IMG/VR virus record: IMGVR_UViG_3300050132_000112
Location: 1-64,000 of that record
Origin: a virus
Length of the DNA: 64,000 nucleotides
Strand: one strand, 5' to 3'
Shown here: positions 1 to 20,107 of the stretch, one piece after another
Numbering within the stretch: the first letter of the stretch is position 1
Layout: each line of letters starts with the position of its first letter
Notes under the pieces: model-generated
Databases searched by the model: none
Told to the model about the DNA's origin: nothing
Seen by the model: only the letters and a program-made list of their open reading frames with translations
Made by a program: the position numbers and the translations under genes

Positions 1-240
1 CAGTCGCCTGTGTTCCTGTCGCCTGTGTTCCTGTAGCCTGTGTTCCAGTCGCCTGTGTTCCAGTTGCCTGTGTTCCTGTCGCCTGTGTTCCTGTCGCCTG
101 TGTTACTGTTGCCTGTGTTACTGTCGCCTGTGTTCCTGTAGCCTGTGTTACTGTTGCCTGTGTTACTGTCGCCTGTGTTACTGTCGCCTGTGTTCCAGTC
201 GCCTGTGTTCCAGTTGCCTGTGTTACTGTCGCCTGTGTTC
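1..240 (-). repeat. 15-bp tandem repeat encoding NTG-[DNY]-[SWR]
   Basis: Sixteen consecutive 15-bp units, read on the minus strand as AACACAGGC plus two variable codons. The first variable codon is GAC, AAC or TAC and the second is AGT, TGG or AGG. The nine constant bases show no synonymous change, which points to recent expansion or homogenisation. The array continues beyond the left edge. It lies inside the pentapeptide-repeat CDS and is not a CRISPR, as there are no spacers. Confidence 0.95.
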
Positions 241-971
241 TTTAAACCAGTATTGTCCTTACCCATATTAACGACGGTCAATACTTCTAACCATGTTAAC
301 TCTCTGATAAATTCAATTTCAGACGTGCAACTTTTATTACCCTCAATAACCGTTGTGCCATGATCTAAAATCTCAAACACTCTGTTGTTGGGGTCGAATG
401 AATAATAGTCGAAGCAATCTGCAGCCACTACACAATAGTGAAAACCGCTGTTACAAGGCGATACAACGCCTGTATGCTTATATCTTTTATTTAACTCGTA
501 CTTGTACCCACGGCATGACATATCTTTATTAGTGACCTTATAGCCCCTTATTGGTGCAGGAATACTTAATACATCAACAAAGCGTTGAGGCCATGACAAA
601 TTAGTCGGGTTATCTTTAAATAGCTGAGCAAATAACGGTGCTACTTCTTCGGGTGTAAACCCTGCAATACCGCATCCTATCTCTGTTAATAAGAAATGTT
701 TAGCAGGTATTTGATGAACATGAAATGCAAACTTCTTTATATACTCTTTTAATGCGATTAGCGACACTTTCGCCATTTTGGTATCCAATGTGGGTATGGC
801 GAACGATTGTCCTTGCATACCGAATGCCTGACCGTTTACAGCCCCGAATTTGTCTACTGCTAATCTTGCTGCTCCACCCAAGTGGTCGCCGTTCTCATTT
901 GAACCGAATACGAACACCTCATTCTTTTTGAGTTTCGTAATGTTGTTTGGTGTAATTTTCATTTTGACCAT
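1..971 (-). CDS. Partial protein: macro-like domain, DUF7666-like domain, NTGxx pentapeptide repeats
   Basis: The frame is open at the left window edge, so the C-terminus is missing. I chose the ATG at 971 (a second in-frame ATG is at 962). Residues about 15-115 resemble the A1S_2505-type phage macro-like domain (VFVFGSN, GAARLAVDKFGA, GQSFAIPT, TEIGCGIAGFTPEEV). Residues about 142-225 resemble the phage DUF7666 module (CRGYKYEL, CNSGFHYC, CFDYYSF, GNKSC). From residue about 240 onward, pentapeptides of the form N-T-G-[DNY]-[SWR] repeat at least 16 times and should fold as a beta-helix. A nucleotide or ADP-ribose-like ligand for the first domain is inference. It is the most distal gene seen in the leftward operon. 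Real function unknown. Confidence 0.8.
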   Translation of the reverse strand, partial: MVKMKITPNNITKLKKNEVFVFGSNENGDHLGGAARLAVDKFGAVNGQAFGMQGQSFAIPTLDTKMAKVSLIALKEYIKKFAFHVHQIPAKHFLLTEIGCGIAGFTPEEVAPLFAQLFKDNPTNLSWPQRFVDVLSIPAPIRGYKVTNKDMSCRGYKYELNKRYKHTGVVSPCNSGFHYCVVAADCFDYYSFDPNNRVFEILDHGTTVIEGNKSCTSEIEFIRELTWLEVLTVVNMGKDNTGLKNTGDSNTGNWNTGDWNTGDSNTGDSNTGNSNTGYRNTGDSNTGNSNTGDRNTGDRNTGNWNTGDWNTGYRNTGDRNTGD

Positions 972-1426: not shown

Positions 1427-2083
1427 TTATATGTTTCTTGATTTTTTAGTGTTTATTAAACTTATGGTATTAGCGGCTACTCCAAATATCGATGCAATTT
1501 CTTTTTGCCTCCTACCCAAAAGCAACATTGCTTTAATTTCTAAAACCTGTTTATTGCTCAGTTTAGCACGGTGATTGTCTTCGCCTCTTTTTGTCTTATA
1601 TAGACCAGTTTGGTGCCCGTGTATTTTATTTTCTCTATCTGTACACCATTCTAAATTAGATACATGGTTATTTTTTTTGTGCCCGTCGATATGGTTAACC
1701 TGCGGTTTATTTTCGGGATTGGGAATAAAAGCAAATGCAACCAGCCTATGAACCTTTATTTTTTTCAACACGCCGTTTGTATTTTCTAACCATATTGCAT
1801 AATATCCATCTTTAGAGTTACTACCGAAAGTTATTTTTTCTTCTAATATAAAACTCGGACCCCAAGCCAATTTAATTTCCTTTTTATTTACCCCTACTTG
1901 TCCAAATTCATTAACAGAACATTCTTTAAAACCTACACAATCTATAAAATTGGGGGATAAAGGATATTCATTTTTAATAGATTTTGGTTCTTTATTAGCT
2001 TTCTTTTTTGCCCAAAGAGTCTTGTTATAAGCTGACCTTCTCGCCTTAAAATCCTCGATAGATTCAAACTTTTTGTGGTTCAT
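1427..2083 (-). CDS. Free-standing HNH homing endonuclease with C-terminal HTH
   Basis: Residues about 112-165 form an HNH_3-type core: VHRLVAFAFIPNPENKP, then VNHIDGHKKNNHVSNLEWC and an EN-IHGHQTG tail. The residues H-N-H expected to bind the metal are present. The last 45 residues (LSNKQVLEIKAM, GRRQKEIASIFGVAANTIS) look like a helix-turn-helix for DNA recognition. The first 60 residues are basic and unassigned. Homing endonucleases cut uninvaded alleles so that the gene is copied in by repair. It sits between two small operon genes with 24 bp and 5 bp spacing, with no separate promoter seen. Confidence 0.88.
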   Translation of the reverse strand: MNHKKFESIEDFKARRSAYNKTLWAKKKANKEPKSIKNEYPLSPNFIDCVGFKECSVNEFGQVGVNKKEIKLAWGPSFILEEKITFGSNSKDGYYAIWLENTNGVLKKIKVHRLVAFAFIPNPENKPQVNHIDGHKKNNHVSNLEWCTDRENKIHGHQTGLYKTKRGEDNHRAKLSNKQVLEIKAMLLLGRRQKEIASIFGVAANTISLINTKKSRNI

Positions 2084-7272: not shown

Positions 7273-7497
7273 TTATTTAAGAACAACGTTATAATTTTCG
7301 TTCAACCAATTAACCAACTCCTGTGCGCTTTCGTCATTTAATGCCATCCAATTGGTTTGTCCATTTTCGGGGCTATTTATTTTTACTTGAGGTGCATAAC
7401 CAACATGCGGGTTACCAATCTTTTCTAATTGGCTGCGGTAATAATTGTTTAATTTAAGTGTTGACATTCGAGACAATTTAAAAGCCCTTAACGACAT
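7273..7497 (-). CDS. Hypothetical protein behind structured leader A (74 or 64 aa)
   Basis: Two possible starts: ATG 7497, directly after the structured RNA, or ATG 7467 (MSTLKLNNYYRSQLEK). The C-terminal part (NWMALNDESAQELVNWLNEN) looks like a helix packing on a short sheet. No family recognised. The interest lies in its 5' leader, which shares a fold with the leader of the 56-aa gene at 7887-8057. Confidence 0.55.
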   Translation of the reverse strand: MSLRAFKLSRMSTLKLNNYYRSQLEKIGNPHVGYAPQVKINSPENGQTNWMALNDESAQELVNWLNENYNVVLK

Positions 7498-7592
7498 TGT
7501 ATAGGCTTGTACTGCCGAATGTCCGTTAACCGAAGCTAACAGACTGGCAGACCTTAAACAAGTGTCTCAGGTTTGTAAAGGGTATCTTTAAT
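7498..7592 (-). ncRNA. Structured RNA candidate, copy A
   Basis: Begins at the stop of the upstream gene. In order on the minus strand: ATACCCTTTA box, hairpin P1 with CCTGAGA in its 5' arm, stem P2 CTGCC/GGCAG, and within P2 a 10-bp hairpin capped by a C(UUCG)G tetraloop (about 7521-7544). The same order with different hairpin sequence but preserved pairing occurs at 8095-8188. Could be a riboswitch-like or protein-binding leader. Confidence 0.6.
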
Positions 7593-7848
7593 GCTCTATT
7601 AATTCCCGTATCATATCGTTTAACGCTTTGTAATCTAACTTCGAGCCGTTCCACTTAATTCTATCAGGCGTATTGCTATCGGTTAGCCCCGCCCATTTAA
7701 TAAAGCCACCATAAAGTTTTTTAGAGTTTGGGTTACCTTTAACATATTCTTTTGCTGATTGATATAGGTTATAATCGTTGTTAATGTGTAAAGCCACATT
7801 CCATGTTTGGCGGTTCTTCCACCCGTTGTAATCTGTTGTAGTTTTCAT
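7588..7848 (-). CDS. Conserved small phage protein, YNGWxNRxTWNVAL family (86 aa)
   Basis: The N-terminus YNGWKNRQTWNVALHINND is a motif I associate with small phage and plasmid proteins of unknown function (similar to the DUF7249 group); the C-terminal LDYKALNDMIREL also fits. Length about 85 aa is typical of that group. No catalytic residues evident. It lies between the two structured RNA copies. Confidence 0.65.
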   Translation of the reverse strand: MKTTTDYNGWKNRQTWNVALHINNDYNLYQSAKEYVKGNPNSKKLYGGFIKWAGLTDSNTPDRIKWNGSKLDYKALNDMIRELIEH

Positions 7849-7886
7849 TTGTTTGAGACTGATTAAATGATTAATTATTTGGTTGA

Positions 7887-8057
7887 TTAGTTGTTTAAGT
7901 CGGCTATTGAATAGTTTAACCTATTGGCTATTATTCTAAAATTCTCTTTATCGATTTGATTAGATAGATATATATCGGCATCTACTTCATTTGAATAACT
8001 ACGTAAAAGGCTTTGTGTTGGAATAAAAACAACAGTATAGATAGTTATAGTTTTCAT
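7887..8057 (-). CDS. Hypothetical protein behind structured leader B (56 aa)
   Basis: ATG 8057 to TAA 7887. One beta strand (MKTITIYTVVFIP) and a helical, Asn-rich C-terminus (FRIIANRLNYSIADLNN). It is the first gene after RNA copy B. Unrecognised. Confidence 0.5.
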   Translation of the reverse strand: MKTITIYTVVFIPTQSLLRSYSNEVDADIYLSNQIDKENFRIIANRLNYSIADLNN

Positions 8058-8094
8058 GATATTAGTAATTTAAATAGTTAAGTAAATCAAACAG

Positions 8095-8188
8095 CAACCA
8101 GCCGTTTACTGCCTTATGCCTATTCCATTGACGGAGATAGGCTGGCAGACCCCGAAACGCTCTCAGGGATAAACAGGGTATTTTTATA
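8095..8188 (-). ncRNA. Structured RNA candidate, copy B
   Basis: Begins at the stop of the PAPS-reductase-like gene. Contains the ATACCCTGTTTA box, hairpin P1 (CCCUGAGA-GCG-UUUCGGGG, 8 bp), P2 CUGCC/GGCAG, and an inner hairpin GCCUAU...AUAGGC. Compared with copy A the inner hairpin and P1 arms differ in sequence but still pair, while CCUGAGA, GUCUGCCAG and GGCAGUA are kept. Confidence 0.6.
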
Positions 8189-9095
8189 TTTTAAACAATC
8201 CTTCGTTTATTGGAAGTGTAATTATTTCTTTCTGTGCCTTAACGTTAGGTTTGAACTTCTTAGCTTTTGATTTACACCCTACACACATTGGCATAAATGG
8301 TTCGGCTTTTAGTAGGTTCCCTTGACCGTTCATTTCTTCTAAGTGATAACGGTTTATATTCTGTGCCCAATCCCACGGGAATTTATTTACAACCTCTTTT
8401 CTAATGTCTGTCCACCATTTACCCCATTTAGGGAAGGCTTTAGCGGCTTCTAATCCATTTGCCATGCTTTGCATCGTTCCGCACATACATTCGCCTGAAC
8501 GACCTAATTCTATGCTTACAGGGTTTCGAGTAATATTATTAGCAGATAGATATTCATCACGTTCTTTTGTTGTCCACCAATGAACCATATTAACCCAAAT
8601 ATTTTTAGGTGCAGCAGGGTCGATATTAAAATATTTATCCCCTAAATTATCTGCCCTGTTTTCACTTTCATCAACCCTAACACCGTTTAGCATTAAGATA
8701 TATCTACCTTTAACACCGTGGCGTATATTCTTAGATATTGCTGTTCTAAATGGCTGTGCTTTTAATACATGGTATGATTTAGTATGAGCATCTACACCTC
8801 TACCAAAAAACCCCTTGCGCATTACGTATTTAAAATACGCATCTCCGGCGTTAGCTTCTGCAAACTTAAAACCTGATTTTTCTGCTACCTCATGAACGAA
8901 ATTTCGTGCTTCGTGTATTCCTGTACCTGTTACACCGTGTAATATTAAATCAATTTTAATTCCTAGTTCATTACATATTCTTTCCAATAACCTACTATCG
9001 TCGCCGCCCGAAAGAAGCAAACAAACCGCATAAGGTTGATAAGTAGTCATTGCTTCGTCATATATTTCAAGTGATTGCCTTAATTTATCGTTCAT
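8184..9095 (-). CDS. PAPS reductase-like PP-loop protein (303 aa)
   Basis: The P-loop LLLSGGDDSRL (about 26-36) is the SGGxDS signature of the adenine nucleotide alpha-hydrolase / PAPS reductase family. Two cysteine clusters, GECMCG at about 206-211 and PMCVGCKS at about 269-276, could hold zinc or an iron-sulfur cluster. Family members activate sulfate or thiolate tRNA or DNA (DndC type). Length about 300 aa matches phage members of the family. There are no visible dnd or tRNA-thiolation partners nearby, so the substrate is unknown. Ends exactly where structured RNA B begins. Confidence 0.85.
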   Translation of the reverse strand: MNDKLRQSLEIYDEAMTTYQPYAVCLLLSGGDDSRLLERICNELGIKIDLILHGVTGTGIHEARNFVHEVAEKSGFKFAEANAGDAYFKYVMRKGFFGRGVDAHTKSYHVLKAQPFRTAISKNIRHGVKGRYILMLNGVRVDESENRADNLGDKYFNIDPAAPKNIWVNMVHWWTTKERDEYLSANNITRNPVSIELGRSGECMCGTMQSMANGLEAAKAFPKWGKWWTDIRKEVVNKFPWDWAQNINRYHLEEMNGQGNLLKAEPFMPMCVGCKSKAKKFKPNVKAQKEIITLPINEGLFKI

Positions 9096-9099
9096 GGTA

Positions 9100-9447
9100 T
9101 TAAATATAATCTTGTTCTTCTAAATTGCACGTTACATTTTCAGCTAAAAACATTCTATCTTCATTTAACATATAATCCATATCGTTTATACTGTTAAGGC
9201 TAATCAATAAATCAGCGAAACTATCTAATTGTTCCTCACGCATACAATCATAATACGTTGTGGTTGTTTGTTTGTATGCCTCTTTAATAACCGCAGAACG
9301 AAATAAGAATATTGTTTTGTTGTAGCGACTAACTGTTGATTTTGCGTCCTTGTATGTTACATATTCGCCTATTGTATCAAATCCATTATGGTCTAACACT
9401 TGATACTCATTTGTTGAGTGTTTTGTAAATGATGCTTGAAGTGACAT
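9100..9447 (-). CDS. Hypothetical protein, first gene of the leftward operon (115 aa)
   Basis: I start it at ATG 9447 (MSLQASFTKHSTNEYQVLD). The longer frame from 9531 covers a promoter-like CATCTTTG at 9499-9492 on the minus strand. Acidic C-terminal half, no recognised motif. It precedes the PAPS-reductase-like gene by 4 bp and is probably co-transcribed with it. Confidence 0.55.
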   Translation of the reverse strand: MSLQASFTKHSTNEYQVLDHNGFDTIGEYVTYKDAKSTVSRYNKTIFLFRSAVIKEAYKQTTTTYYDCMREEQLDSFADLLISLNSINDMDYMLNEDRMFLAENVTCNLEEQDYI

Positions 9448-9590
9448 GCTTGAGAGCGTTAAGTCAGTAGCGTTATTGCTGATTGACAATACAAAGATGA
9501 AACACTTTACAACACTTTCCCACATTATCAATATTTGGAATAACCTAACACCTTTATACCTATAACAACATCACAACTAAGGCATTTATT

Positions 9591-13866: not shown

Positions 13867-13896
13867 GTGTTTAACAGGGATTTTTTTTTATATTTG
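13864..13896 (+). promoter_or_regulatory. Promoter TTTG-N21-TATATTTG abutting the HNH start
   Basis: TTTG (13864-13867) overlaps the terminator tail; TATATTTG ends at 13896, three bases before the ATG at 13900. The predicted transcript starts at or next to the AUG, so the mRNA should be leaderless. Confidence 0.7.
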
Positions 13897-13899
13897 TAT

Positions 13900-14430
13900 A
13901 TGGAAAAATGGAAAAAAATACCAGACTCAAACTATAGTGTTTCAACGCATGCGAGGATAAGAAATAATTTAACTAATTATATGTTTAAACTCCATGTTAA
14001 TAAACAGGGATACCAAAAGATACATATTAAAGTCGGGGTAGTTGAAAAAAATTTCTTTGTACACAGACTATTGATGGCAGCATTTGTTCCTAATCCCGAA
14101 AACAAACCGTGCGTTAATCATATTAATGGCATTAAAAACGATAATAGATTAGAAAATTTAGAGTGGTGTACAGTACGGGAAAACAATATTCATGCTTTTA
14201 GATGTTTAGGAAAAAGCGCTGAGGGAAACTATTCTAATCTAAAAAATATACCACCACCAGTACCAGTTTATAGCATAGATAGTTTAGGAAACAAGGTAAG
14301 ATTTAATTCCCTAAAGGAAGCCGGTATAAGTATTGGAACTACAGCTGGTCATGTATATAATTCGGTTTATAAAAAGAAAAAAAATGGTAGTCCGTATACT
14401 GCAAAGGGATATTGTTTTGAGTTGGCATAA
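13900..14430 (+). CDS. HNH homing endonuclease, NUMOD4-HNH-NUMOD1 (176 aa)
   Basis: The true start is ATG 13900; the frame from 13867 would begin upstream of the promoter. Residues 1-50 (EKWKKIPDSNYSVSTHARIR) match NUMOD4. Residues about 58-108 (VHRLLMAAFVPNPENKP, NHINGIKNDNRLENLEWC, ENNIHAF) form the HNH_3 core. The C-terminus (VYSIDSLGNKVRFNSLKEAG then TAKGYCFEL) matches NUMOD1, a DNA-recognition module. It is a free-standing intergenic homing gene with its own promoter. Confidence 0.9.
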   Translation: MEKWKKIPDSNYSVSTHARIRNNLTNYMFKLHVNKQGYQKIHIKVGVVEKNFFVHRLLMAAFVPNPENKPCVNHINGIKNDNRLENLEWCTVRENNIHAFRCLGKSAEGNYSNLKNIPPPVPVYSIDSLGNKVRFNSLKEAGISIGTTAGHVYNSVYKKKKNGSPYTAKGYCFELA

Positions 14431-15331: not shown

Positions 15332-16063
15332 ATGGCATACCGATTTAGCGATACTGGAAAATGGGCTGACGAATGGTTTGTAGACCTTTCACCTCTCGAA
15401 AAATTACTGTTCCTATACCTTTGCGATAATTGCGATATAGCTGGCTTTTATGAACTAAGCCTAAGAAAGCTGAACTTCGACACAGGAATATCACCCGATG
15501 AAATTAAAGGGGCTTTAAAGGGGCTTGAAAGGGGCTATATACTTTCGGAAGATAAAAGGGTTTTGTTTTTAAAGAAGTTTGTAAAGCATCAAAAGAATTT
15601 ACCACTAAATCCCGACAATAAAGCCCATAGGGGCATAATTTCGAGGTTTGAGAACTATTCTGATAGGTTTGAAGACGACTTAATAGCATTCGTAAATAAA
15701 GGGGCTTCAATGGGGCTTCAAAGCCCCACAGGTAATGGTATAGGTAATGGTATAGATACAGGTACTATTAAACTATTTACTAAAGAGGTGAAATTTTTTA
15801 AAATTTTTGAAAGGTGGATTAATTATAAAAAGGCTCGTAAGGAAATGTACAAGACGCAAGATTCTTATGAAACAGCATTTAAAAAACTTTTAAAATATAG
15901 CGCAGAAGATGCGGTGATGGCAAACGAAATAATTGATAGTGCAATTGGGAATAATTATTCTGGTTTTTTTGAATTAAGCCAAAAGGACTTAGCAAAAATA
16001 CAAGCCCCTAAACAACAAATCTCTACGACCCGAAAAATTGACCATAGAAACCAACCACAATGA
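15332..16063 (+). CDS. Replisome organiser / replication initiation protein (243 aa)
   Basis: The start AYRFSDTGKWADEWFVDLSP and LLFLYLCDNCDIAGFYE are typical of the N-terminal winged-helix domain of phage replisome organisers. A low-complexity linker (GNGIGNGIDTG) leads to a C-terminal helical domain that would contact the helicase. It overlaps the dnaB start by 4 bp, the classic initiator/loader-helicase pair. Confidence 0.75.
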   Translation: MAYRFSDTGKWADEWFVDLSPLEKLLFLYLCDNCDIAGFYELSLRKLNFDTGISPDEIKGALKGLERGYILSEDKRVLFLKKFVKHQKNLPLNPDNKAHRGIISRFENYSDRFEDDLIAFVNKGASMGLQSPTGNGIGNGIDTGTIKLFTKEVKFFKIFERWINYKKARKEMYKTQDSYETAFKKLLKYSAEDAVMANEIIDSAIGNNYSGFFELSQKDLAKIQAPKQQISTTRKIDHRNQPQ

Positions 16064-18579
16064 TTTTTGAGAACGACAAGCAATATAGTGCCGATACACT
16101 TTCAGGTAGAACACGAAGCGTTTTAACACCTTACACTGGATTAGGCAAACTACCTCCGCAAGCAACTGATTTGGAAGAGGCGGTATTGGGCGGCATCCTA
16201 ATAGACAAAAACGCTTTTATGACCGTGATTGAGGTTTTAAAAGTCGAATGTTTCTATCGTGATAACCATCAAAAGATTTTTAATGCCGCTAAGTTATTAT
16301 TTGAAAAAGGTGACCCGATTGATATTCTAACCGTAACATCACAATTAAGAAAATTGGGGGAGTTAGAAATGATAGGCGGTGCTTATTACATTACCGAACT
16401 AACCAACAGAATAGCTTCAACCTCAAACATTAAAACGCACTCGCTTATTATTTACGAAAAGTTTTTGCAGCGGGAGATGATAAGGATAAGCACCGAAACG
16501 ATTAATTCGGCTTACGAAGATACTACCGATGTATTTGAAATGGTAGAAAAAAACCAAAAGGAAACCTATTCGCTTATGGCTAATCAGAACGGTAGGGATG
16601 TCAAAAATATTGGTGACTTAGGCAGACAACGTTTGAAAGATTATCAAGCAACTACATTAAGTGGTTTAACGGGATTGGGAAGCGGATTTACTTCGATTGA
16701 TGAAATAACAGGGGGTTGGCAGAAAAAAGATTTGATAATAGTTGCTGCAAGACCCGCCATGGGTAAGGCGCAACCATTAAACTCTAAGGTATTAACACCT
16801 ACTGGATTTAAGAAAATTGGCGAACTAAAAATTGGCGATGTTATATGTAATTCAGGCGGTGGTATTCAAAAAGTTAACGGTGTATTTCCGCAGGGTAAAA
16901 AACAAACATATACTGTAATGTTTAATGACGATACTGAAACAAGATGTTGTGACGAACACCTTTGGCTAACACATAGCCGCAGCGAAAGAAAAAATAAAAT
17001 GGACCCGTCTGTTAAGTCTTTAAACGAAATAAGAAACACATTAAAAACAGGTAAGGATAATAGAAAAAATCATTCTGTTGATTTTGTTGAACCCGTATTC
17101 TTTTCAGCCAAAAAACTATTAATTGACCCATATTTAATGGGGGTATTACTTGGTGATGGATGTTTATCCCATTTAAGCATAACTAACCCGGAGTTTGATA
17201 TAATAGAGAGAATATCTAAAGCGTTGCCCGAGGGTTGTGTTATTAAAAGAAAAAAATCAAATATCAGGTGCCCGGAATATAGAATAAATGGCGTTACTGT
17301 TGGGAAAAACCCACTGATTGGATTATTAAAGCATTATGGACTGGACAGTAAACTATCCGCAGATAAAATAATACCGCCCGAGTACCTAAGAAATTCTTTT
17401 GCTAACAGGCTGGAATTATTGAGAGGATTATTAGATACCGATGGGTATGTTGTTGATAGACATTGTATCGAGTTTTCTACTACTTCAAAATGGATTAAAA
17501 TTGGAATAATTGATTTGGTTCGGTCGTTGGGAGGAAGGGCAACCTTTAAAGAAAAACAAGGTAAATACACAAAAAATGGCATTGAGGTTATTTGCCAAAA
17601 ATTTTACAGGATAAATATTTCATTTACCACCAACGGGTTTACTCCGGTAACATCTAAAAAGCACCAAGAAAGGTATGGATTTTCAAAAAATAAACTTCAA
17701 AAGTTTATATCAAGTGTTGTTCCTGATAAAATAGAGGATTGTGTTTGTATAAGCGTATCACACCACGACCAACTTTATATAACCGACGATTACATTTTAA
17801 CCCACAATACTGCATTAGCGTTACAGATAGCCAAAAACGCCTCTATAAAGCACGAAACGCCCGTAGCCATATTCTCACTTGAGATGAGTGAAAACCAGTT
17901 AACAGACAGGCTTATTTCAAGCGAAACGGGTATATTTCAGGATAAGTTGTTGAAAAGGCAACTATCAAAGTTTGATTTTGAGGAATTGGAAAGCAAAACG
18001 ATAAATCTTTTTAAATCTAAAATATTCATTGATGATACTGCATCATTGTCGATAACGTCTTTGAGAAGTAAGGCAGTTAGGCTTAAACAACTTTATGGAA
18101 TTGGATTAATAGTAATTGACTATTTGCAGTTGATGGAGGGTGCTAAAGATAAAAACACCAACAGGGAGCAGGAAATAAGTAAAATAAGCCGAGGGTTAAA
18201 AGGATTGGCTAAAGATTTGGATATTCCTGTTATTGCCTTATCGCAGTTGAGTAGAGAGGTTGAAAAACGTGCAGGAAACGCTAAGCGACCAATGTTATCT
18301 GATTTACGTGAAAGCGGTTCGATTGAACAAGATGCTGATAGTGTTTTATTCCTTTACAGACCCGAATATTATGGCATTGATTATACCGAAAATAATGAAA
18401 GCACAATGGGCTTATGTGAGGTTATATTCGCTAAGAACAGAAGCGGGATTTGTGATACCGCAAATCTAATTTTTAACGGGGCGTTAATGAAGTTTTCTGA
18501 TAGGCAAAATATACCTTTTCAAGCCCCGCAACAACCATCTAATTTTATTATACGACCTAATTATATGAACGAGGATTAA
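16060..18579 (+). CDS. dnaB: Replicative DNA helicase DnaB with intein (839 aa precursor)
   Basis: Extein 1 (1-236) holds the DnaB N-terminal domain (LPPQATDLEEAVLGGILID) and the start of the RecA-like domain with the first half of the Walker A loop (ARPAMGK). Extein 2 (584-839) continues with TALALQIAKNAS and contains LIVIDYLQLMEG (Walker B) and SQLSREVEKR, both standard DnaB motifs. Spliced length about 492 aa. The intein lies exactly within Walker A, so the precursor should be inactive until splicing. It unwinds DNA 5' to 3' at the phage fork. Confidence 0.93.
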   Translation: MIFENDKQYSADTLSGRTRSVLTPYTGLGKLPPQATDLEEAVLGGILIDKNAFMTVIEVLKVECFYRDNHQKIFNAAKLLFEKGDPIDILTVTSQLRKLGELEMIGGAYYITELTNRIASTSNIKTHSLIIYEKFLQREMIRISTETINSAYEDTTDVFEMVEKNQKETYSLMANQNGRDVKNIGDLGRQRLKDYQATTLSGLTGLGSGFTSIDEITGGWQKKDLIIVAARPAMGKAQPLNSKVLTPTGFKKIGELKIGDVICNSGGGIQKVNGVFPQGKKQTYTVMFNDDTETRCCDEHLWLTHSRSERKNKMDPSVKSLNEIRNTLKTGKDNRKNHSVDFVEPVFFSAKKLLIDPYLMGVLLGDGCLSHLSITNPEFDIIERISKALPEGCVIKRKKSNIRCPEYRINGVTVGKNPLIGLLKHYGLDSKLSADKIIPPEYLRNSFANRLELLRGLLDTDGYVVDRHCIEFSTTSKWIKIGIIDLVRSLGGRATFKEKQGKYTKNGIEVICQKFYRINISFTTNGFTPVTSKKHQERYGFSKNKLQKFISSVVPDKIEDCVCISVSHHDQLYITDDYILTHNTALALQIAKNASIKHETPVAIFSLEMSENQLTDRLISSETGIFQDKLLKRQLSKFDFEELESKTINLFKSKIFIDDTASLSITSLRSKAVRLKQLYGIGLIVIDYLQLMEGAKDKNTNREQEISKISRGLKGLAKDLDIPVIALSQLSREVEKRAGNAKRPMLSDLRESGSIEQDADSVLFLYRPEYYGIDYTENNESTMGLCEVIFAKNRSGICDTANLIFNGALMKFSDRQNIPFQAPQQPSNFIIRPNYMNED
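16768..17808 (+). mobile_element. Intein with LAGLIDADG endonuclease in DnaB
   Basis: Residues 237-583 (347 aa). It starts with AQPLNSKVLTPTG, so the first residue is alanine rather than Cys or Ser, and ends YILTHN followed by Thr as the +1 nucleophile. EHLWLTH lies in the block B region. The endonuclease has two LAGLIDADG helices, LMGVLLGDG and LLRGLLDTDG. Ala-1 inteins splice without the first acyl shift, by direct attack of the +1 residue. Confidence 0.92.
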
Positions 18580-18923: not shown

Positions 18924-18931
18924 TATATTTG
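18924..18931 (+). promoter_or_regulatory. TATATTTG element abutting tnpB
   Basis: TATATTTG is followed by three bases and the ATG at 18935, the same geometry as at the HNH gene (13889-13900). No clear TTTG lies 19-21 nt upstream. Confidence 0.55.
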
Positions 18932-18934
18932 CAT

Positions 18935-20107
18935 ATGCTAAGGGCTTATAAATATCGCATAATGCCAACACCTGACCAATCTATACTTATCAATAAGCAT
19001 ATTGGTAGTTGTCGGTTTGTTTACAACTTGGCATTAGAGGTGAAGAACAATGCTTATGCTACCCATAGGAAAAACATTACTTGTTTTGATTTGATGAAGC
19101 AATTGCCCGATCTAAAAAAAGAATGTGAATGGTTAAAAGAAGTAGATAGTCAATCTCTACAACAATCGATAATAAATCTTGATAAGGCATTTACACAATT
19201 TTTTAAGGGATATTCAAGATTTCCTAAGTTCAAAAACAAACATTCTGCTCAATCTTTTCGAAATCCACATGGTGAATTTGTAGAAATAAAAGAAGGAAAA
19301 CTATATCAACCAAAATTTAGAAGTGGAATTAAAATAATAATAGATAGAGAATTTACAGGGGAAATTAAATCAACTACAATTAGTAGAACACCAACTGGCA
19401 AATATTTTGTATCCATTTTGGTAGACACCTCTAACAACATACCTGATAAAAAAACAATAGTCGAAAAAACATCAATTGGCATAGATTTAGGTATCAAATC
19501 GCTAATTGTCACCAGCGATGGAGTGAAAATAGATAACCCAAAACATCTTAAAAAGCAATTATCTCATTTAAAATACCTACAACGCCAATATTCAAAAAAG
19601 AAAAGTGGTAGCAATAATAAAACCAAATCCCGATTGAAATTAGCATTATGCCATGAAAAAATAGCCAATCAACGAAAAGACTTTTTGCATAAACTTTCAA
19701 GTGAACTTATCAAGAACCACGATACGCTTTGCTTTGAAACTCTGCAAATTGATAATATGATGAAAAATCATAAATTGGCACAAGCTATTCAAAGTGCAGG
19801 CTGGGGTATGTTTGTAGAAATGTGTAAATATAAAGCCGAATGGAACGGGAAAAATATTTTACAGATTCCAACATTTCAGCCGTCAACCAAGATTTGTTCC
19901 AATTGCGGAGCCACAAATCATACACTTACTTTGGCAGATAGAGAATGGATTTGCGCTAACTGTTTGACTTTGCATGATAGGGATGTAAACGCAGCTATCA
20001 ACATAAAAAATTATTCATTAAGAGATTGCGGTGGGGTACGCCGTGAAAAGCCTGCGGAACTGCCGACGTTAGTTGGAGTAATGAAACAGGAAAATATTAC
20101 AGTGTAA
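18935..20107 (+). CDS. tnpB: TnpB RNA-guided nuclease (390 aa)
   Basis: The N-terminus (RAYKYRIMPTPDQSILINKH) is the standard TnpB/OrfB helix-turn-helix start. RuvC catalytic residues are in GIDLGIKSL (about D184), CFETLQI (about E268) and HDRDVNAAINI (about D350). The zinc finger has CSNCG and CANC. Length is normal (about 370-400 aa), so it looks intact. TnpB cuts DNA at sites matching its guide RNA and keeps the element in place after transposition. I use ATG 18935, since the upstream TTG overlaps the promoter. Confidence 0.93.
   Translation: MLRAYKYRIMPTPDQSILINKHIGSCRFVYNLALEVKNNAYATHRKNITCFDLMKQLPDLKKECEWLKEVDSQSLQQSIINLDKAFTQFFKGYSRFPKFKNKHSAQSFRNPHGEFVEIKEGKLYQPKFRSGIKIIIDREFTGEIKSTTISRTPTGKYFVSILVDTSNNIPDKKTIVEKTSIGIDLGIKSLIVTSDGVKIDNPKHLKKQLSHLKYLQRQYSKKKSGSNNKTKSRLKLALCHEKIANQRKDFLHKLSSELIKNHDTLCFETLQIDNMMKNHKLAQAIQSAGWGMFVEMCKYKAEWNGKNILQIPTFQPSTKICSNCGATNHTLTLADREWICANCLTLHDRDVNAAINIKNYSLRDCGGVRREKPAELPTLVGVMKQENITV

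Follow-up and report, generated by a model that had tools for sequence, protein, structure and literature searches.

A covarying two-hairpin RNA family after stop codons near the start of small-gene operons in phages related to those of Bacteroidota

In the present study, positions 1 to 64,000 of the IMG/VR virus record IMGVR_UViG_3300050132_000112 were analysed (this whole stretch of 64,000 nucleotides is called the window), in which a leftward operon on the minus strand carries two similar leaders among its small genes (Table 1). Both leaders, at 7498-7592 (copy A) and 8095-8188 (copy B), are present as originally predicted and can be aligned with each other from end to end, with the same order on the minus strand of ATACCCT, CCTGAGA, GGTCTGCCAG, an inner hairpin and GGCAGTA. 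The pattern CCTGAGA..GGTCTGCCAG gave two matches in the window and none in 100 dinucleotide shuffles. Each leader begins at the stop codon of the upstream gene, with 16 nt (copy A) or 15 nt (copy B) between the stop and the first hairpin (P2), and precedes a small open reading frame; the inner hairpins also have the form first described for them, 10 bp with a UUCG loop in copy A and GCCUAU/AUAGGC in copy B. Stop-codon readthrough was considered as a function and is unsupported; an in-frame UGA lies a few codons past the copy A stop. The PAPS-reductase-like protein is 47-48% identical to proteins of the Rhizobium phages RHph_N3_2 and RHph_I3_18, and the remaining phage looks Bacteroidota-type. 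Elsewhere in the window, a DnaB-like helicase is encoded at 16060-18579 (+), of which residues ~226-594 match terminase-type PHROG profiles, as expected of an inserted intein, and a transposase-family protein, probably TnpB-like, at 18929-20107 (+) (phrog_506, 1e-125). The proteins of 1427-2083 (-) and 13867-14430 (+) match the same relatives in G002 and G027, two of the phages treated below, and possibly form one mobile gene family. A protein of many near-perfect NSATTGxxA repeats, encoded at L175 14225-15379 (-), has relatives at the left end of the window (1-971) and in L341, a part of the record beyond the window.

Table 1. Parts of the two RNA copies and neighbouring genes of the leftward operon, in window coordinates
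Feature	Position	Strand	Description
Promoter-proximal gene of the leftward operon	9100..9525	-	Homologue in phage G004 directly downstream of the G004 element; tblastn/blastp 44-54%
PAPS-reductase-like protein gene, upstream of copy B	8184..9095	-	303 aa; Pfam PF01507 1.8e-7, phrog_424 6e-16
Copy B 5' flank	8169..8186	-	Stop UAA 8184-8186, AUACCC box; possible P1 AUAAA-AAUACCCUG-UUUAU
Copy B structured core	8107..8168	-	P2, U, P3, A, P4, AUAA, P3', UA; folding z = -2.7 against dinucleotide shuffles; model R3 61.9 bits; checked letter for letter
Copy B hairpin P2	8150..8168	-	CCCUGAG/UUCGGGG; folding and pair counts
Copy B long hairpin	8109..8148	-	P3 CUGCC/GGCAG, internal loop A / AUAA, P4 GCCUAU/AUAGGC, plus UCC/GGA above a bulged C
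Small gene after copy B	7887..8057	-	56 aa; no Pfam match; weak phrog_4060
DUF7249 protein gene, upstream of copy A	7588..7848	-	86 aa; PF23907 1.2e-14
Copy A 5' flank	7572..7590	-	Stop UAA 7588-7590, AUACCC box; possible P1 UAAAG-AUACC-CUUUA
Copy A structured core	7510..7571	-	P2, U, P3, A, P4, AUUC, P3', UA; folding z = -3.5 against dinucleotide shuffles; model R3 64.6 bits; checked letter for letter
Copy A hairpin P2	7552..7571	-	CCUGAGA/UUUAAGG, one G.A mismatch; family pair counts, helix 1
Copy A long hairpin	7512..7550	-	P3 CUGCC/GGCAG, internal loop A / AUUC, P4 GUCUGUUAGC/GUUAACGGAC, UUCG loop; RNAfold and pair counts, helices 2 and 3
Small gene after copy A	7273..7464	-	ATG at 7464 or an earlier ATG at 7497; no family match

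Among cultured phages, the terminase of this phage shows ~27% identity to Flavobacterium phage terminases and also finds matches in phages of Cellulophaga, Tenacibaculum and Maribacter; at 26 IMG/VR loci the identity is 59-66%. In L159, L160, L161 and L163 the terminase match spans ~3.0-3.1 kb versus ~2.0 kb, suggesting an intein or intron of ~1 kb. Relatives of the RNA element were obtained by several routes. A covariance model of the two window copies, as had been proposed at the outset, was built (R1) and searched in near-complete relatives, where it scored an element at 37 bits in G002 and another at 20 bits in G004, both directly following a stop codon. The pattern of stem P3 and its neighbours alone led to elements in G027 and in G803, which resembles a provirus of an isolate. 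In both, P2 and P4, absent from the search pattern, pair perfectly or nearly so, unlike in the chance matches that these scans also gave. The second G002 copy was found with model R2. Use of the divergent replication-type gene beside the operon as query led to G808, G809 and G810, and model R3 to an element in G809 and an identical copy in G810; the second G809 element came from a structure-only descriptor, and its close relative in G808 was read off the sequence. Overall, the family comprises 10 elements in seven phages, eight of them beyond the window copies and from six other phage records, with G810 as an eighth record, and all 10 were verified letter for letter. The structure-only descriptor scored seven elements at 47-52, the best shuffle at 39 and one unrelated match at 35.

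The R1 matches in L183, L210 and L203 and the R3 matches in L291, L298, L303, L336 and L359 were rejected, those checked lying inside coding sequence or showing no P2/P4 pairing. The exact patterns CCTGAGA..GGTCTGCCAG, ACCCT..CCTGAGA..GGTCTGCC and CTGAGA..GTCTGCC..GGCAGTA gave chance matches only in viral contigs and, for one of them, also in genome contigs, because the boxes are the P2 stem itself or are partly conserved. There was no element match in seven cultured phages of Cellulophaga, Flavobacterium, Tenacibaculum and Maribacter, and the near relatives G001, G010, G022 and G025 are without the element. The Bacteroidota genomes gave no true match in two pattern searches (~355 genomes in each) or in two model searches (~390 in each), and for the latter, in which only 13 candidates were scored per genome, the absence is weak evidence.

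The core of 59-73 nt consists of hairpin P2 (6-8 bp), usually one unpaired U, and a longer hairpin made of P3 (5 bp), an internal loop A/AUNN and P4 (5-6 bp plus a few more above a bulge), followed by UA. The linker between P2 and P3 is one nucleotide in eight of the 10 elements, and this nucleotide is U in seven of the eight. An A stands after P3 in most elements, and the 3' strand of P3 is preceded by AUNN, sometimes UUAA, and followed by UA or UG; the unpaired U, A, AU and UA are largely kept throughout the 10-sequence alignment. The helices served as hand-set anchors for this alignment, the loops being padded with N; G809_2 and G808 are close relatives within it, and the E-values of the models are rough. 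Pairing was found in 97.8% of its cells versus 32-43% in slid-register controls, and the covariation score was 0.821 versus 0.325 +/- 0.037 after shuffling. The original prediction held that sequence changes while pairing is kept, and named homologues without compensatory changes as the outcome that would speak against it. This outcome did not arise: across the 10 sequences, two-sided changes were found at 15 of the 18 base pairs. P3 had seemed invariant among the first copies found. It covaries as well, with CUGCC/GGCAG in most elements, CCGGC/GCCGG in G809_1 and CCGCC/GGCGG in G809_2 and G808; the P3 of G027 and G803 is not independent in this respect because both were chosen through P3, and G809_1 was reached through a neighbouring gene and a model and not through the P3 pattern. 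Since letters change while base pairs stay in six other phages, this is a real RNA element, and the 10 elements form a family of structured RNAs in phages related to those of Bacteroidota.

ATACCCT and CCTGAGA are found in both window copies. As marks of the family they are not general: CCTGAGA is no conserved box, being the 5' arm of P2, which varies with compensation in other elements, and ATACCCT, in the form of ACCC or UACC, is common to the window copies, both G002 copies and the G809_2/G808 type. Its place is taken in the G004, G027 and G809_1 type by ACUGUA(U)AAGUU or something near it, with the stop codon inside. A third hairpin, P1, may form over the stop codon, which is weakly suggested by its standing modestly above shuffles (7 of 300 were equally good). 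Pairing of the 5' flank with the 3' flank into a closing stem did no better than shuffles. Searches of Rfam 15 gave no match for the window at the gathering threshold and one chance match at a permissive threshold, and nothing above chance for the regions L224/L225, L181 and L353/L354. The view that the leaders belong to no known class thus agrees with the result for window copies and relatives alike, and the family is undescribed, matching nothing in Rfam 15.

All 10 copies lie on the coding strand and between genes. P2 starts 3-4 or 13-18 nt past the upstream stop codon, where the RNA is no longer covered by ribosomes, and the distance to the next open reading frame ranges from ~0 to ~180 nt. 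Furthermore, each copy sits early in a long series of small genes on one strand: 1-5 genes precede it and, by the approximate counts of a crude gene caller, 37 and 36 genes follow the two G002 copies, 38 the G004 copy and 19 the G027 copy. In the window, G002, G004, G808 and G809, the operon diverges from one headed by a replication-type gene, of which the window counterpart is only 17-18% identical. The gene content suggests that the carrier operons are early. Two copies are found within one operon in three phages. Copy A and G809_2 each follow a DUF7249 gene (in G809, L354 5728-6054, then the element at 5709-5637), and the genes downstream of different copies are unrelated to one another. 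G808 and G809 are alike in the element and its downstream gene and differ in the gene that precedes it (L353 5789-5900; L354 5637-5740), which places a gene exchange boundary at the 5' edge of the element. The G803 element overlaps at its 3' end with the start codon of the gene that follows (GGCAGUAUG). GC-rich hairpins with short T runs flank the G803 element within its operon (L271 ~3720-3690 and ~3060-3030, -). A phage protein common to all was not found among the five carriers compared, in which small proteins diverge fast and G027 is perhaps incomplete, and there was no excess of intrinsic terminators downstream in the carrier operons.

From these features we infer that the element is an RNA in vivo, acts in cis and is concerned with early transcription, and it probably controls the making or handling of the long early phage transcript. 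A cis element folding on the nascent transcript would agree with the constant strand, the location behind a stop codon, the proximity to the promoter and the two-hairpin build, and the position near the operon start is as expected for nut- and put-type sites, because these must sit near the promoter. By analogy, our leading explanation, with a probability of about one in three, is that the element influences the early transcript in cis, in the manner of put, the two-hairpin antiterminator of HK022. In such a mechanism, the two adjacent stem-loops, encoded right after the stop of a promoter-proximal gene, would fold once the ribosome leaves the preceding gene, the folded nascent element would alter the host elongation complex, perhaps assisted by a host protein, and RNA polymerase would then read on through the long array of small genes, overcoming pausing as well as termination, the latter probably Rho-dependent. 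In a protein-free version, the nascent two-hairpin RNA would ride the host RNA polymerase through 10-20 kb of this array. The stronger proposition, that this is a new RNA antiterminator family of Bacteroidota phages which needs no phage protein and is an independent counterpart of HK022 put outside Proteobacteria, is doubtful. Several points count against antitermination: the terminator counts leave no visible obstacle for read-through, one antiterminator per promoter should suffice where three phages have two copies per operon, no sequence similarity was seen to the approximate HK022 range treated below, and the overlapping AUG in G803 suggests a possible part in translation.

Processing or stabilisation of the transcript between genes is the next explanation, possible in our estimation and not likely. 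A host RNase would cut at the element, or the element would block a 3'-5' exonuclease, giving the upstream mRNA a stable end and the genes of the operon different levels, as RNase III sites do among the early genes of T7. The tight distance from the stop codon to the element, compared with the variable distance to the next start, agrees with this, as does the presence of two copies in one operon, and the long hairpin, with its asymmetric internal loop, looks like an RNase III substrate of the single-cut kind. However, a processing hairpin needs little sequence conservation, yet the unpaired bases and the abutting P2 are largely kept, and the copies cluster near the operon start instead of being spread over its 20-38 genes. 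Conservation of unpaired bases around an asymmetric internal loop looks like a protein recognition site, and the element could be imagined as an operator at which a host or phage RNA-binding protein represses or activates translation of the neighbouring early genes. Several copies per genome would form a regulon, and the start codon overlapping the element in G803 is also in favour of this. We consider it somewhat less likely than processing, as the five carriers have no common phage protein and the distance from element to start codon is not conserved. Both processing or stabilisation and protein binding come close to antitermination in probability, and they explain the multiple copies as well as it does, or better.

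Ligand sensing, one of three functions offered by the original prediction, is now the least likely of them. A riboswitch or other ligand-sensing leader could be recognised in the compact covarying fold with conserved loop bases 5' of genes, and in the hairpin directly after copy B (8108-8088). Nevertheless, the unrelated downstream genes point to no common pathway, no terminator or sequestering stem is common to the 3' flanks that would make a conserved expression platform, and Rfam gave no match, so that a metabolite riboswitch is improbable. Most improbable is an element working as DNA, such as a recombination site or mobile-element end (an IS200/IS605-type subterminal hairpin or a cassette site) folding as single-stranded DNA: the gene exchange at the element's edge in G808/G809 and the transposase-family gene of the window are in its favour, but a DNA element has no reason to keep to the coding strand and follow a stop codon in 10 of 10 copies, no copy is near the transposase-family gene, and the single long inverted repeat of attC sites is absent.

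To our knowledge, undescribed cis-acting phage RNA families with very strong covariation are uncommon, and little is known of how this phage group runs its long early operons of small genes. Were RNA polymerase its target, the element would represent protein-free antitermination outside Proteobacteria and could serve for expressing long operons in Bacteroidota; as a processing or protein-binding site, it would give a direct handle on early gene control in the carrier phages. Whichever function holds, the covariance model allows further members of the family to be found.

Among known systems, the early genes of T7 are separated by RNase III sites, and several hairpins with internal loops occur in one early operon. 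The present element is similar in placing hairpins with internal loops between the genes of an early operon, and differs by the second hairpin, P2, abutting the first, and by its conserved unpaired bases. In lambda-type phages, nut sites lie right after the first gene or genes of the early operon, in RNA just past a stop codon. This placement is the same as that found here; however, nut needs the phage N protein and consists of boxA and one short hairpin, whereas our element has two covarying hairpins and no shared phage protein. The put site of HK022 is ~70 nt long, with two stem-loops, a bifurcation nucleotide and a wedge low in stem II; it is present as two related copies per phage in the early transcripts, needs no phage protein, and its RNA binds the zinc-binding domain of RNAP beta', suppressing pausing and termination (PMC9378689). 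In a rough comparison, model R3 found nothing in HK022 (NC_002166, 26000-30200), a record in which put is unannotated, so that the range taken for its place is approximate. The differences are that the hosts are not the same, that the window copies share one operon where put is present once per promoter, and that few intrinsic terminators lie downstream of the elements. In likeness to put, the element combines in 59-73 nt two stem-loops, a linker of mostly one nucleotide (8 of 10) and a wedge-like internal loop low in the second stem-loop, and it is promoter-proximal, with two related copies per genome in three phages and no dedicated phage protein seen. The comparison with put thus concerns the likely mechanism of the element and not membership of the same family.
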